Shown here: in pieces, positions 4,113 to 56,402 of the stretch | How positions within the stretch are numbered: position 1 is the first letter of the stretch | How the letters are laid out: the number at the start of each line of letters is the position of its first letter | DNA from: Solirhodobacter olei | GTDB lineage: Bacteria; Pseudomonadota; Alphaproteobacteria; Rhodobacterales; Rhodobacteraceae | Length of the DNA stretch: 64,000 bases | Assembly (NCBI RefSeq): GCF_004010155.1 | Contig: NZ_RRYH01000007.1 | Location: forward strand, 248,001 to 312,000 | Direction: 5' to 3' | Notes under the pieces: model-generated | Told to the model about the DNA's origin: nothing | The model's database searches: none | Seen by the model: only the letters and a program-made list of their open reading frames with translations | Translations under genes and position numbers: made by a program

Positions 4113-5087
4113 TCAGATCCAGCGCAGCTTCCGAAGCAGCGCGAAGACCAGTGCAACGATGGCCAGCAGGATCGCGCAGACGATCCAGAAGCCGGCCTTG
4201 TTCTCGGCGCCCGGGATGCCGCCGACATTGATGCCCAGAAGCCCGGTGACGAAGCTGATCGGCAGGAAGACCACCGTGATGATCGAAAGCATGTAGAGGT
4301 TTCGCCCCACCCGGCCCGAAAGCACGCCCTGCAATTCGTCCCGCACGACCGCCAGCCGGTCCCGCAGCGCATCGGCATCCTCGATCGTACGTGTCAGCCG
4401 TTCATGCGCTTCGACCAGCGCCCGGGTCTCGCGCGGATCGAAAAGACCCGATTCCGCACGGATCAGCCCCGAAAGCGCATCGCGCTGCGGCCCGATATGG
4501 CGGCGGAACTGGATCAACCTGCGCCGCGCCTCCGAAATCTGCGCGCCCAGTTCCGGCTCCGGTTCCTCCAGCAGCGCATCCTCCAGGTCGTCGCAGTTCT
4601 CCTCCAGCCGGTGCAGGAACTCCTCGATCCGGTCGTTGAGCCGCTCGATCAGCCGGCAGATGAAGCTGCCGACGCGTTCCGGCCCCTGGCCGGCCGCGAC
4701 CTGCTCGCTCAGATCCCCGACCGAGACGAGATCGCGCACGGCGGTAGAGACGACCCGCGCCGGATCGGCGTAGATCCGGATGGAGACCATGTCCTCCGGG
4801 TCCTGCCCGGGGTTCAGGTTCACACCCCGCAGGATCAGCAGCATCCCCTCGCCCAGCGGCGCCGCGCGCGGCCGCGTCTCTTCCGCCAGAAGCGCCCGCA
4901 GCACCAGCGGGTCCAGCCAGCCGAGATTCTCCTGCATCCAGTCCTCGGTCCGCGCATGGCTGGCGCGCAGGTGCAGCCAGGCCAGCTCCGGCGCCTGCAG
5001 CGCACCGACGATCTCGGGCTCGTGCCGCAGCCGGGCGCCACGCTCGGGGCCGTTCAGCATGTAGGCGAAAAGGATGTGCTCGCTCAT
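4113..5087 (-). CDS. zntB: ZntB-type CorA-family metal transporter
   Basis: 324 residues. A soluble N-terminal domain with long helices is followed by two C-terminal membrane segments, the CorA/ZntB layout of a pentameric channel. The signature after TM1 reads GLLGINVGGIPG, that is GIN rather than the GMN of CorA magnesium channels, which places it with ZntB zinc transporters. The start at 5087 (MSEHILFAYML) is preferred over an upstream in-frame ATG that adds 27 residues with no family resemblance. The 275-base upstream region holds one copy of the CGGT repeat element, so expression may depend on whatever binds it. Confidence 0.88.
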   Translation of the reverse strand: MSEHILFAYMLNGPERGARLRHEPEIVGALQAPELAWLHLRASHARTEDWMQENLGWLDPLVLRALLAEETRPRAAPLGEGMLLILRGVNLNPGQDPEDMVSIRIYADPARVVSTAVRDLVSVGDLSEQVAAGQGPERVGSFICRLIERLNDRIEEFLHRLEENCDDLEDALLEEPEPELGAQISEARRRLIQFRRHIGPQRDALSGLIRAESGLFDPRETRALVEAHERLTRTIEDADALRDRLAVVRDELQGVLSGRVGRNLYMLSIITVVFLPISFVTGLLGINVGGIPGAENKAGFWIVCAILLAIVALVFALLRKLRWI

Positions 5088-5229: not shown

Positions 5230-5299
5230 TTACGGTGCGAAAGCGGTGCAAAAGCGGTGTTATTTCGGTATTCGGATTTTGTGGCCTTTTCAGCCGTTT
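5230..5299. repeat. CGGT 11-bp phased repeat element, copy A
   Basis: CGGT occurs at 5233, 5244, 5255 and 5266, exactly 11 bases apart, followed by ATTTT at 5276 and CCGTTT at 5294. An 18-base stretch, TTACGGTGCGAAAGCGGT (5230-5247), is identical to positions 55012-55029. The element is about 145 bases upstream of zntB and the surrounding sequence is unusually AT-rich for this genome. Not a coding region. It may be a protein-binding array on one face of the helix or an interspersed repeat. Confidence 0.7.
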
Positions 5300-5362
5300 A
5301 GGCGCAATTTGGCGGGTCAGGGCCAGGCCCATCGCACGCCGCCTTCCAATGTCGTTAAGCTT

Positions 5363-6289
5363 TCAGACCGGATCGCGCAGCACGTCCGTCATCGCGGCCA
5401 TGATCGCCTCGGGATGGGTGTAGGGCAGGGCGTGGGTGGCGCCCGGGACCTCGGCCTGCCGCGCGTTGCGGTTGATCTGCGCCAGCCGCCCCATGGCGGA
5501 AAGCGGGATCACCGCATCCACCTCGCCCCAGACGGCGAGGACCGGCAGATCGGTCTCGCCCAGCTTGCGATGCGTCTGTGCGAGGTTTTCCCGCATCATG
5601 TTCCGCAGGCTGGACAGCACCGCCGGAAGGCTGCCGCGATAGCCCATTTCCGCGGCAGATCTCTTAACGAAATCAGGCAGTTCCGGCTGGGCAGGCAGGG
5701 CGCGGTTGATCGAGCGGCGGTGCATGATATCGCCCAGGACGCGGATCAGCCCGTCGCCCAGAACCGGAACCCGGGCGCAGAAGGAAAGGAACCGGCTTAC
5801 CCGGTGGCCCAGCCCCACCGGCGCCACCAGCACCAGCCGGTCCACGCGTTCGGGATGATCCTCGGCATAGGCGGTGGCGATGGCGCCGCCCATGGAATAC
5901 CCGATGAGCGTCACGCCCTGGGTAATCTCCAGCGCCGCAAGCAGCTCCTCCAGCTGGGTGACGAAGAAAGCCCGGTCCTGCCGCCCCGGCGGCCGGTCCG
6001 ACATGCCCCGGCCATAAAGATCATAGGTCAGAACCCGCATCCCAAGCCCCGTCAGCGCCACCGCGAGCGGGGTCCAGACATAGCTCGGCGTGGTCAGCCC
6101 ATGCACACAGACCACGATCGGCCCGCGCGAGGGGCCACGCCATTCGTAATAGGTAAGCCCTCGGGAAAGCTCGATAAAATCGCCCGTTGCCAGGCGCCGC
6201 GCCTTCGCGTCCATGGGCTTGCGGAGTGCCTCCACCACCACCGGCAGAAGCAGGAGGACAAGGATCAGGGCAAGAAGCGCCCAGATCAT
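5363..6289 (-). CDS. Alpha/beta hydrolase, membrane-anchored
   Basis: 308 residues. An N-terminal hydrophobic segment (residues 2-20) looks like a membrane anchor or uncleaved signal. The hydrolase fold follows: oxyanion motif VHGLTTPSYVW near residue 75, nucleophile elbow GYSMGG, an acid in the region VWGEVDAVIP and a catalytic His in GATHALPYTHPEA. Likely an esterase or lipase acting at the inner membrane; substrate unknown. It is the last gene of a leftward operon; its ATG overlaps the TGA of the upstream cyclodeaminase-like gene (ATGA). Confidence 0.85.
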   Translation of the reverse strand: MIWALLALILVLLLLPVVVEALRKPMDAKARRLATGDFIELSRGLTYYEWRGPSRGPIVVCVHGLTTPSYVWTPLAVALTGLGMRVLTYDLYGRGMSDRPPGRQDRAFFVTQLEELLAALEITQGVTLIGYSMGGAIATAYAEDHPERVDRLVLVAPVGLGHRVSRFLSFCARVPVLGDGLIRVLGDIMHRRSINRALPAQPELPDFVKRSAAEMGYRGSLPAVLSSLRNMMRENLAQTHRKLGETDLPVLAVWGEVDAVIPLSAMGRLAQINRNARQAEVPGATHALPYTHPEAIMAAMTDVLRDPV

Positions 6290-35842: not shown

Positions 35843-36664
35843 ATGTTCAGCCCGAGTGTGACGGCCAATACCGCGACAAGCCTCTTCCGGCAGATGGACC
35901 TGATCTACCACGCCGCGGTGCGCCATGTCCGCAAGAGCCACGGAAACGCGATCATCGGGCTGGTGATGAACATGATGCAGACGGTGATGATGATCGTCGT
36001 CTTCTACATCATGTACAAGGTGCTGGGACTGACCTCGATGCGGGTGCGGGGCGATTTCGTCCTCTACATCATGTCCGGCATCTTCCTCTTCATGACGCAC
36101 ACGCGGACGCTGGGCGCGGTCTCCTCGGCCGATGGCTCCACCTCGGCGATGATGAAACACGCGCCGATGAACCCGATCGTCTCGGTACTCTCGGCCGCAC
36201 TCGGTACGCTCTACGTGCAGCTCCTCTCGATGGGTCTGGTGCTCGGGGTCTATTCGTTGAGCTTCCATCCGGTCAGCATCGCCGATCCGGTGGGGGCTAT
36301 GGCCATGGTGCTCCTGGCCTGGTCGAGCGGGATCGGCATCGGGCTTCTCTTCCGCGCGCTGCGGCCCTGGCAGCCGGACCTCGCCACCATCGCCACGCTG
36401 ATCTTCATGCGCGCCAACATGGTTGCCTCGGGCAAGATGTTCGTCGCAAACAGCCTGCCGCCGAGGATCCGGGGCTATTTCTCCTGGAACCCGCTCTTTC
36501 ACACCATCGACCAGTGCCGGGGCTTCGTGTTCGAGAACTACACCCCGCATTTCACCTCGACCCTCTACCCGGTCTACGTGACGCTCGCCTGCCTGATGAT
36601 CGGGCTGATCGCGGAGTTCTATACCAGCCAGCACGCCTCGGTGAGCTGGGAGATGGGGCGATAG
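35843..36664 (+). CDS. ABC-2 type polysaccharide export permease (KpsM-like)
   Basis: 273 residues from the ATG at 35843; a TTG at 35795 would add 16 residues and cannot be excluded. Six membrane segments are visible, with the ABC-2 permease pattern (VRKSHGNAIIGLVMNMMQ; PHFTSTLYPVYVTLACLMIGLI near the end) of KpsM/Wzm exporters. It would move a capsule-type polysaccharide across the inner membrane, but the partner ATPase (KpsT) is not in this window. Divergent from cysQ, at the edge of the polysaccharide locus. Converges on alkB. Confidence 0.82.
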   Translation: MFSPSVTANTATSLFRQMDLIYHAAVRHVRKSHGNAIIGLVMNMMQTVMMIVVFYIMYKVLGLTSMRVRGDFVLYIMSGIFLFMTHTRTLGAVSSADGSTSAMMKHAPMNPIVSVLSAALGTLYVQLLSMGLVLGVYSLSFHPVSIADPVGAMAMVLLAWSSGIGIGLLFRALRPWQPDLATIATLIFMRANMVASGKMFVANSLPPRIRGYFSWNPLFHTIDQCRGFVFENYTPHFTSTLYPVYVTLACLMIGLIAEFYTSQHASVSWEMGR

Positions 36665-54430: not shown

Positions 54431-54898
54431 TCAGCCCGCCGTCCCGTCCCTCGGGTTGTTCCGCACGATCCAGAGGTTCAGCGCCGCCGCCAGCGTCAGC
54501 CAGCCGAGATACGGCAGCACCAGCAGCCCCGCCACCCAGTCGAGCGGCCAGAAGGTCACGAACATCGCCGCCACCGCCAGCCAGAGGATCGCCATCACGA
54601 CAAGGCTCATCCGCATCCGGTGCGCGCCGAAGAAGACCGGGGTCCAGAGCGTGTTGAACGCGATCTGCATCGCCCAGAAGGCCAGCGCCATGCCGCTGCC
54701 GGGCTGCGCCGCCACCCGGCTCGCCGCATAGCTGCTCAGCAGGTAGAGGACCGACCAGGCGACCGGGAACACCCAGCGCCCCGGCGTCCAGGTGGGCTTG
54801 TTCAGCGAACTGTACCAGGCGCCGGGCGGGAACAGCACGCCCGTCGCCGCCCCGGCCGCCGAGGCCGCAAGAAAGATCAGAAAAAGGTCGGGATGCAT
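54431..54898 (-). CDS. tspO: TspO/MBR family protein
   Basis: 155 residues with five hydrophobic segments. The signature WYSSLNKPTWTPGRWVFPVAWSVLY is clear, and NTLWTPVFFGAHR follows. TspO binds tetrapyrroles; in Rhodobacter it is an outer-membrane regulator of photosynthesis gene expression. Presence of the gene is compatible with, but does not prove, a phototrophic host. The 199-base upstream region holds copy B of the CGGT repeat element. Confidence 0.92.
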   Translation of the reverse strand: MHPDLFLIFLAASAAGAATGVLFPPGAWYSSLNKPTWTPGRWVFPVAWSVLYLLSSYAASRVAAQPGSGMALAFWAMQIAFNTLWTPVFFGAHRMRMSLVVMAILWLAVAAMFVTFWPLDWVAGLLVLPYLGWLTLAAALNLWIVRNNPRDGTAG

Positions 54899-55011
54899 CG
54901 TGCGCTCCTGTGGTCACTGCCCGCCATACCTAGGGCATGACGGGGCAGGATTCACGCCGCCCGGCGGGGCGTTGTGCGAAGCGCCGCCCCACCGTCCCGA
55001 AATACGGTATC

Positions 55012-55082
55012 TTACGGTGCGAAAGCGGTAGCAAATCGGTGCTCTATCGGTGCCCCTATTTTTCCTGCTTTCCCAACCGTTT
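55012..55082. repeat. CGGT 11-bp phased repeat element, copy B
   Basis: CGGT occurs at 55015, 55026, 55037 and 55048, exactly 11 bases apart, with a further one at 55005. ATTTTT begins ten bases after the last unit and CCGTTT lies at 55077-55082, matching the layout of copy A at 5230-5299. The element is about 115-150 bases upstream of tspO and just past the xylA stop. Confidence 0.7.
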
Positions 55083-55097
55083 GGTCCCCGCGTCGGT

Positions 55098-56402
55098 TCA
55101 GACGAAGCGGTTCCAGATATTCTCCAGCCGCTCCTGCCGCCCGGATTTCGGCTGCGGGTTGATCCCGTCCTTGAGCACCCGCGCGGCGATCCCGTCGAGC
55201 GTTCCCGAGGCCAGCATCTCCTGCGCCTCAGCCCGCTCCCAGCCCGCGTAGCGCGCCTTGCGCGCGGCCTCCAGGGACCCGTCCTCCAGCGCCGCCGCGG
55301 CCGCCTTCAGGCCGCGCGCGCAGACGTCCATCGCGCCGGCATGCGCCAGGATAAGGTCTTCCGGATCAAGGCTTTGCCGGCGGATTCGCGCGTCGAAATT
55401 GGTCCCGCCCGTGGTGAAACCCCCGGCCTTGAGGATCTCGTAATAGGCCACGGCCACCTCCGGCACGTTGTTGGGGAACTGGTCGGTGTCCCACCCGGAC
55501 TGGTAGTCGTTCCGGTTCATGTCGATCGACCCGAAGATGCCCAGGCTCGTGGCCATTGCGATCTCGTGCTCGAAGCTGTGCCCGGCGAGGATCGCATGGC
55601 CCTGCTCGATGTTCACACGGATCTCATTCTCCAGCCCGAACCGCTTCAGGAACCCGTAAACCGTTGAAACATCGTAATCATATTGATGCTTCGAGGGTTC
55701 CTGCGGCTTCGGCTCGATCAGGATCGTGCCCTTGAACCCGATCTTGTGCTTGTAGTCGACGACCATGTGCAGGAACCGCGCCATATGCTCCGCCTCGGCC
55801 CCGAGGTCGGTGTTCAGCAGCGTCTCGTACCCTTCGCGCCCGCCCCACAGGACGTAGTTCTCGCCCCCGAGCTTGTGGGTCGCATCGATGCAGGTCTTCA
55901 CCGTCGCCGCGGCGAAGGCGAAGATGTCCGGATCGGGGTTCGTCGCCGCGCCCGCCATGTATCGGCGGTTGGTGAAGAGGTTCGCCGTGCCCCAGAGAAG
56001 CCGCGTCTTGGACCGCTCCATCTTGGCGGCGAAATAGTCGACAATCTCTTCCAGGTTGCGGGTATTCTCTGCGAAATCAGCGCCTTCCGGGCGTACGTCG
56101 GCATCGTGGAAGCAGAAGAACGGCGCGCCGAGCAGGTCGAACATCTCGAAGGCCACATCCGCCTTCTGCTTGGCGCCGGCCATGCCGCCGTCGAACCAGG
56201 GCCGCTGGAAGGTGCGCCCGCCGAACGGGTCACCGCCCTCGTAGGCGAAGGAATGCCAGTAGGCCACGGCAAAGCGGAGGTGATCCTCCATCCGCTTGCC
56301 CATCACCACCTCGTCGGGGTTGTAATGATGGAAGGCAAAATCGTTGGCGCTGTCCGGCCCCTCGTAGCGAAGTGCCGGGATTCCCTTGAAAAAGTCACTC
56401 AT
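55098..56402 (-). CDS. xylA: Xylose isomerase
   Basis: 434 residues, the long (class II) form. Metal and substrate signatures [52 protein letters not shown] and the catalytic His in [12 protein letters not shown]. Converts D-xylose to D-xylulose. Nine bases after xylB, in the same leftward unit. The array element follows its stop. The full pathway to xylulose 5-phosphate is encoded here. Confidence 0.97.

Follow-up and report, generated by a model that had tools for sequence, protein, structure and literature searches.

Within the window, i.e., the whole 64,000-nucleotide stretch of DNA that was analysed (positions 248001-312000 of contig C91 in the source genome, G000), the tetramer CGGT recurs four times with an exact 11-bp period at two places, which raises the question of whether such arrays serve the genes beside them or the chromosome as a whole. 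Direct reading places CGGT at 5233, 5244, 5255 and 5266 in copy 1 (array 5233-5269, + strand; position weight matrix score 100.5) and at 55015, 55026, 55037 and 55048 in copy 2 (55015-55051, + strand; score 88.8), as given in the preliminary description. Its observation that TTACGGTGCGAAAGCGGT is common to both copies without difference also holds, and CCGTTT does begin 28 and 29 bases past the start of the last CGGT. The T-run, which had been put 10 bases from that start, lies 11 bases from it in both copies. Each array is followed on the + strand by a T/C-rich tail common to the family, at 5270-5310 and 55052-55085; both right edges are approximate, the first being drawn from column conservation 3' of 29 arrays of G000 and 17 of its congener G248, and the second from direct reading together with this conservation. 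Copy 2 has an additional CGGT at 55005, 10 bp 5' of its array, within an inverted pair ACCGT...ACGGT (54991-55008, + strand) that forms the head of a "long" subfamily; in the alignment of this subfamily, GTTGTGCGA (54971-54979, + strand) is the counterpart of its GTTGCGCAA block.

The flanking genes are all on the - strand. Copy 1 lies between a CorA/ZntB-type transporter on its left (4113-5087; PF01544, with ZntB as the best NCBIfam match, under the curated cut-off) and an alpha/beta hydrolase on its right (5363-6289; PF00561), and copy 2 between tspO (54431-54898; NF047825, above cut-off) and xylA (55098-56402; TIGR02630, above cut-off). The two copies had been described as lying upstream of leftward genes, and the start codons are indeed 145 bp away on the zntB side and 116 bp away on the tspO side, but the nearest gene ends are the stop codons on the opposite side, those of the hydrolase at 93 bp and of xylA at 46 bp. 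When the window was searched for CGGT-N7-CGGT-N7-CGGT with at most one mismatch, just these two arrays were found, which account for four overlapping matches where 0.76 would be expected; four were reached in 1 of 100 shuffles of the window.

The family extends far beyond the window. G000 comprises 4.78 Mb in 122 contigs, and a whole-genome pattern search of the kind proposed earlier gave 111 matches (68 + 43) to CGGT-N7-CGGT-N7-CGGT. An array contributes several of these matches, and the reversed pattern has none, which puts the family far above chance. In a sample of 1.247 Mb (26%; contig C47 entire and parts of C36, C91 and C23), a position weight matrix detected 29 arrays with scores of 17 to 110, whereas an equally long simulated order-1 sequence reached at best -4.0 in the first round and less thereafter. 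The whole chromosome would thus hold on the order of 100 arrays. When all 256 tetramers were ranked at N7 spacing in the 1.247 Mb, CGGT and its complement came first with 45, followed by GGTG (23), which overlaps the CGGT unit, and GCGC (20). When periods from 4 to 23 were scanned for CGGT, period 11 gave 45 and all others at most 9. A periodicity search free of CGGT also put period 11 in the lead under strict settings (three units, threshold 13), with 20 in G000, where no other period exceeded 9, and 15 in G248, where none exceeded 3; under lax settings periods 14 to 17 matched or beat it in G000, and at a high threshold almost nothing was returned (5 in G248). A chance origin of the arrays is ruled out by the shuffles, the reversed control and the tetramer and period rankings. 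Near position 95770 of contig C47 in G000 there is also an AT-rich intergenic stretch with an 11-bp periodicity unrelated to CGGT.

The unit of G000 is CGGTGCnAAAn, repeated and then followed by the T/C-rich tail. The long subfamily, with its hallmarks of an upstream GTTGCGC block and ACCGTCCCGAAATACGGT, accounts for 10 of the 29 sampled arrays by regular expression, copy 2 included, and for a few more by eye. Four is the commonest number of units in the sampled arrays of G000, G248, G217, G287, G371 and G274. The counts are 26 arrays with four units, 9 with three and 4 detected by the matrix alone in G000, four units in 29 of 31 arrays in G248, and four in every sampled array of G217 (10), G287 (8) and G371 (9). 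Higher numbers occur in G250 (33 arrays: 13 with four units, 18 with five, 1 with six and 1 with eight) and in G242, where 4 of 6 sampled arrays have five. These samples are shaped by search patterns that were based on CGGT. In some arrays of G248, e.g., at C5:129494 and C3:113896, the junction between array and tail reads like ATCGGT-N-CCCCGATTT, with the unit core inverted.

We sought whether the arrays are placed with respect to genes as a regulator would require. Copies scattered at random within genes, against which the preliminary description had set its reading, were not found: none of the 29 sampled G000 arrays is inside a called gene (our own simple gene caller), although, once 40 bp are allowed for the tail, some arrays reach up to 24 bp into the end of a gene, and in other genera 4 of 81 array loci are within a gene by a rough gene caller. 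The strongly constrained 11-bp phase, the variable sequence between units and the intergenic placement are all as described earlier, and for these reasons the array design fits the suggestion that several protein monomers may sit on one face of the helix. The G000 arrays lie in 10 convergent, 16 tandem and 3 divergent gaps, against 79, 354 and 166 among 599 gaps; convergent gaps are enriched (p = 0.004) and divergent gaps are not (p = 0.051). With the 17 arrays of G248 (3 convergent, 9 tandem, 5 divergent), the pooled convergent excess has p = 0.007.

Such placement bears on the idea that the arrays are operators for an OmpR/PhoB-type transcription factor, a family whose sites are direct repeats with an 11-bp step. 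The geometry is present, and the start codons of chorismate mutase and lpd, for example, have an array some 30 bp ahead of them in several genera. Sites massed upstream of promoters, however, are not what the contexts above display (0 inside genes, 10 convergent, 16 tandem, 3 divergent); convergent rather than divergent gaps are enriched, about 100 sites occur in both orientations to their flanking genes, and the polarity and even spacing described below would be unexpected of operators, which makes this reading improbable. A regulator of zntB and tspO is not supported either, given that about 100 members adjoin unrelated genes, with convergent gaps enriched and divergent ones not. The skew polarity, the even spacing and the retention of addresses under sequence turnover likewise argue against a two-gene regulator. 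The regularity of the arrays is in their orientation to GC skew and in their spacing, not in their orientation to genes, which suggests chromosome landmarks rather than switches for two genes.

Many arrays lie shortly 3' of stop codons, and the family has a T-rich tail, as might be expected if they acted at the RNA level as terminators, leaders or small RNAs. Against this, 46 arrays fold no better than their shuffles, with z < -2 in 0 of 46 on the CGGT strand and 3 of 46 on the other, and the mean z for the two strands in G000 is -0.24 and -0.08. The orientation to genes is mixed, and an Rfam search gave no match at either copy of the window. An RNA element is therefore hardly credible. A fold of the minus-strand DNA of copy 2 (z = -2.6) was set aside, as the family folds give it no support. 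Elsewhere in the window, positions 36407-36561 on the - strand match the Ruegeria cis2 sRNA (RF02645), scoring 61.3 bits where the gathering threshold is 50.

Local strand bias, measured as GC skew, is usually the trace of DNA replication. In G000, where 52 of 61 full 20-kb segments have a skew above 2%, all 24 scorable arrays carry CGGT on the C-rich strand, with 5 of the 29 set aside as lying in a weaker or incomplete segment; when skew is taken over ±15 kb, the count is 27 of 29. In G248, it is 12 of 14, with 3 set aside. Among octamers counted at least 60 times in the same G000 segments, the best polarity is 0.85, below that of the arrays. Gene direction fails to explain this polarity, since the element strand accounts for 0.486 of the coding in G000 (more than half at 14 of 29 arrays). 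Orientation flips coincide with skew flips within C36, C47 and C91. Because skew and orientation flip together several times inside C36, while parS on C91 marks a flip of neither, the polarity is best described as tracking skew history rather than proven current replication direction. The repeated changes of skew sign within a few hundred kb on C36, C47 and C91 may themselves reflect inversions, misjoins or something stranger.

In other genera, parS (TGTTTCACGTGAAACA) was taken as the mark of the origin, with only parS-bearing contigs being usable. By hand tally, the strand bearing CGGT points away from parS in 64 of the 90 arrays outside the genus (G274 32/45, G217 C4 5/5, G371 C16 9/14, G287 C40 10/16, G333 C2 6/7, G242 C34 0/1, G151 C1 1/1 and G176 C1 1/1). 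If the terminus of G274 is placed just before 1.128 Mb, the total becomes 65 of 90 (p = 3e-5). In that genome, the array strand is + in 12 and - in 3 arrays up to 1.012 Mb, - in ten consecutive arrays from 1.128 to 1.873 Mb, and mixed beyond; the change of strand sits opposite parS (2.93 Mb). Sampled GC skew in G274 changes sign from + to - in the interval 1.17-1.35 Mb and back again in 2.61-2.79 Mb, with one contrary sample at 1.71 Mb. The dnaA gene of G274 is at 1.349 Mb, near the terminus assumed here, which counts against the parS-based polarity. Skew is used throughout as a proxy for replication direction. Adjacent arrays are co-oriented beyond chance only when pooled (129 of 214, p = 0.002) and in G287 (43 of 61, p = 0.0009); taken singly, G000 (25/40), G248 (9/20), G274 (24/44), G217 (11/19), G371 (10/19) and G242 (7/11) are not significant.

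The spacing of the arrays was compared with randomly drawn intergenic gaps in G000 and G248. In the G000 sample, median spacing is about 38 kb, the CV is 0.56 against 0.90 in the null (p = 0.002), and no spacing is below 8 kb where 4.2 were expected (p = 0.009). On contig C5 of G248, the CV is 0.57 against 0.87 (p = 0.07), with 0 against 2.6 below 8 kb (p = 0.03). For G287 and G371 the null was uniform between the first and last array of each contig. Among the listed arrays of G287 (at least 70, on contigs with three or more), 4 spacings are below 8 kb against 16.5 expected, with 0 of 5000 trials giving as few, and the CV is 0.77 against 0.97 (p = 0.012); in G371 (21 arrays) the CV is 0.61 against 0.88 (p = 0.027), with 0 against 1.3 below 8 kb (p = 0.25). 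No evenness beyond random was seen in G274 (CV 0.95 against 0.97, p = 0.47). Spacing is thus more even than random in G000 and in two of three further genomes.

From these patterns we tentatively propose, with a probability of roughly 0.43, that the arrays are putative binding sites of a protein that marks the chromosome with the polarity of replication. One sequence-specific DNA-binding protein would occupy them, its subunits lying on one face of the helix in 11-bp steps, typically four. About 100 intergenic arrays, rather evenly spaced, would each keep the same strand as leading strand, and their polarity would be read by something that travels along with replication or opposite to it; segregation, a translocase and a factor linked to the fork are examples. 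Several observations weigh against such a landmark role. The polarity of G274 is just 32 of 45 and its spacing is no more even than random; skew and arrays do not flip at parS on C91 of G000; and the distribution, described next, is patchy, which is odd for an essential chromosome function.

Among seven genomes of the genus, CGGT-N7-CGGT-N7-CGGT has 111 matches in G000, 110 in G248 and 177 in G250 and one in each of the four others, with 0 to 4 for the reversed control. In a collection of 84,980 species, from which the window's own genome may be absent, a four-unit AAA-type pattern found 53 stretches, all in the MAGs WGNF01 (Rhodobacteraceae RI_331) and JAKAJW01 (WY4.bin28). A four-unit CGGT pattern was then applied to 394 Rhodobacteraceae genomes, about one per genus, and matched 32. 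The reversed control matched 28, mostly once, and single matches accordingly carry little weight. At least 10 matches are present in 10 of the 394 (G287 113, G000 50, G242 48, G371 27, G217 22, G151 22, G119 18, G266 16, G274 12 and G340 10). The reversed control, TGGC-N7 four times over, itself has 14 matches in G145, 20 in G175 and 16 in G215, which may mean that these genera have 11-bp repeats of other kinds. A looser common pattern matches at all in 37 of 385 genomes across the class: outside Rhodobacteraceae there are 0 to 3 matches per genome, similar to the background of 0 to 2 for the control, and inside the family G000 has 25, G210 8 and G055 2.

The nine other array-rich genera of Rhodobacteraceae keep the 11-bp period at dispersed loci with a different unit, which among the matches listed is mostly CGGTATYRCGT, unlike that of the source genus. 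This bears on the possibility that the functional feature is intrinsically curved DNA with phased A/T tracts every 11 bp. Units of the source genus carry AAA or TTT at helical phase, as do some units of G287; in most other array-bearing genera the units are mostly without A-tracts, and for this reason curvature is set aside as the conserved feature, being a very improbable explanation. A GC-rich unit, CGGTGCACRYC, with the 11-bp period is present in G018 (L034, L037, L213) and G147 (L031, L036, L038), which represent two further genera.

Array positions were compared among species by their flanking genes. Within the genus, 23 pairs of arrays have a common flanking gene, of which 19 are on the same side and strand (16 close by), none is mirrored and 4 are in another gap. 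In sequence, however, the paired 37-bp arrays resemble each other no more than randomly chosen arrays do: identities of 17 shared-gene pairs range from 25 to 32, and the means for 15 pairs are 27.0 for G250/G000 (7), 28.3 for G248/G000 (4) and 30.5 for G250/G248 (4), against 27.1, 27.7 and 30.2 for random pairs; this 15-pair comparison omits L168 with G248 C5:216504 (other gap) and L043 with G248 C5:274584 (gene 484 bp off). Address is thus kept while the letters are rewritten. This fits a binding code that has altered together with its putative protein, turnover of sequence then reflecting changed specificity, and it could also arise by gene conversion among copies.

Sites are also shared among genera, at chorismate mutase, gltD, an ABC ATPase and lpd. 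The chorismate mutase site is common to G274, G217, G333, G158, G292 and G176 and mirrored in G248; the gltD site is common to G151 and G217 and mirrored in G000 and G248; and the lpd site is common to G119 and G100. Among 16 pairs of the genus with other genera that have a common flanking gene, 11 are mirrored, 2 have the same orientation (L156/L265 and L152/L268) and 3 are in another gap. The 11 mirrored pairs represent four loci (gltD, chorismate mutase, the ABC ATPase and the gene of L193/L231). The same reversal is seen in the polarity: in the source genus the C-rich strand carries CGGT, and elsewhere the tetramer mostly belongs to the strand that points away from parS. On the same gene strand, the units at gltD are TCGGTATCACG in G217, CCGATTTGACA in G248 and CCGATATCGCA in the array-poor G182, and the best common unit on one gene strand is YCGRTWTYRCR. 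We infer, from sites found with patterns built on CGGT, that there may have been one ancestral unit, YCGRTWTYRCR, of constant polarity, with CGGT arising on either strand by coincidence. CGGT itself is therefore probably not the ancestral core. Of the earlier view that both the tetramer and its spacing are what is preserved, the spacing stands; CGGT, mostly on the opposite strand at sites shared among genera, probably does not. Furthermore, two array-poor genomes, G182 and G251, have a degenerate array 3' of gltD with the same array length as in G248; the lone match of G182 is this relic, which is absent from G252 and G249.

The chief rival to chromosome landmarks is a strand-biased dispersed repeat, mobile or REP-like, which would copy itself or spread by gene conversion with a strand bias at the fork, later inversions flipping skew and repeat together. 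The tie to skew that persists across skew flips is what such an insertion bias would produce. About 100 intergenic copies with convergent gaps enriched, the species-wide homogenisation of array sequence and the homogeneity of the long subfamily (10 of 29), which suggests copying, are also in its favour. An identical 37-bp four-unit array occurs at unrelated places, as L203 in G176, inside a DEAD/DEAH helicase gene with a 636-codon open frame, and as L232 between genes in G274, and this counts against pure vertical inheritance; recQ was ruled out as a site common to these two genomes, the identical array being at different places. A mobile repeat is harder to reconcile with position and orientation common to species (19 of 23 pairs, none mirrored), positions common to genera, relics of equal array length in array-poor congeners and even spacing. 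The arrays also form no hairpin, and neither terminal inverted repeats nor a target duplication were apparent by eye in the aligned copies. Altogether, we give this rival appreciable credence while thinking it more probably wrong than right. Two comparisons do not bear on the choice. Of 32 gene pairs whose adjacency is conserved between the initial G000 and G248 samples, none has an array in either genome, which makes the comparison uninformative; xylA was matched in 11 of 29 genomes and is followed by tspO, by eye, in G000 only, so that no empty-site comparison is available.

The full form of the landmark reading, in which polar, evenly spaced landmarks would be inherited by position across genera of Rhodobacteraceae and read in one direction relative to the fork, with a lineage "dialect" rewritten at every site, is doubtful as a whole. 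If the landmark reading is true, the arrays tell a machine of the chromosome, every few tens of kilobases, in which direction replication ran; the organisation of the chromosome in a large bacterial family becomes open to direct testing, and the simultaneous rewriting of a binding code at many sites can be studied in a natural example. If the mobile repeat is true instead, its spread records the history of the replication strand and helps to spot inversions in draft genomes.

How do the arrays compare with known systems? Noc, SlmA and MatP each act on the scale of the chromosome through tens of scattered sites; to our knowledge their sites are palindromes without replication polarity, whereas here direct arrays have polarity. 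Operators of the PhoB/OmpR type repeat directly every 11 bp along one helix face, and a direct-repeat step of about 11 bp is what we found; the arrays differ in being strand-polar, rather evenly spaced and not tied to promoters. REP/BIME elements, which are linked to RAYT transposases, resemble the arrays in having over 100 intergenic copies, but REPs are palindromic (PMC2817692), whereas the arrays repeat directly and form no stable hairpin. The hairpins expected of REP/RAYT elements were not found, z being below -2 in 0 of 46 arrays on the CGGT strand and 3 of 46 on the other. No description of such arrays was found in the literature on alphaproteobacterial KOPS, Rhodobacteraceae/Rhodobacterales repeats and evenly distributed binding sites, a search that left most subscription papers outside, and the accessible parts of PMC7901474 and PMC6315104 contain nothing on phased 11-bp arrays.

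The arrays would work like polar chromosome landmarks such as KOPS and AIMS, a likeness of function rather than an established membership in either. KOPS are 8-bp single motifs (GGGNAGGG in E. coli) defined by recognition by the gamma domain of FtsK. The arrays resemble them in being polar, present in many copies per chromosome and tied to the replication strand, an orientation found with the skew proxy in 24 of 24 and 12 of 14 arrays and with parS in 64 of 90; they differ in consisting of phased 11-bp units, intergenic and in about 100 copies. KOPS GGGNAGGG itself was rejected as a polar motif of G000, its polarity of 0.67 (202 of 302) being no higher than the 0.69 of an order-2 Markov model. 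AIMS are octamers whose abundance and bias rise toward the terminus, according to PMC5993296. Both AIMS and the arrays are strand-biased elements of mostly unknown function, the arrays being about 37 bp and more in length rather than octamers. In G274, the single genome tested for a rise toward the terminus, polarity is 17 of 23 in the terminus half and 15 of 22 in the origin half, i.e., the rise is not seen. Polarity is thus what the arrays have in common with KOPS and AIMS, while length, unit design, placement and copy number differ.
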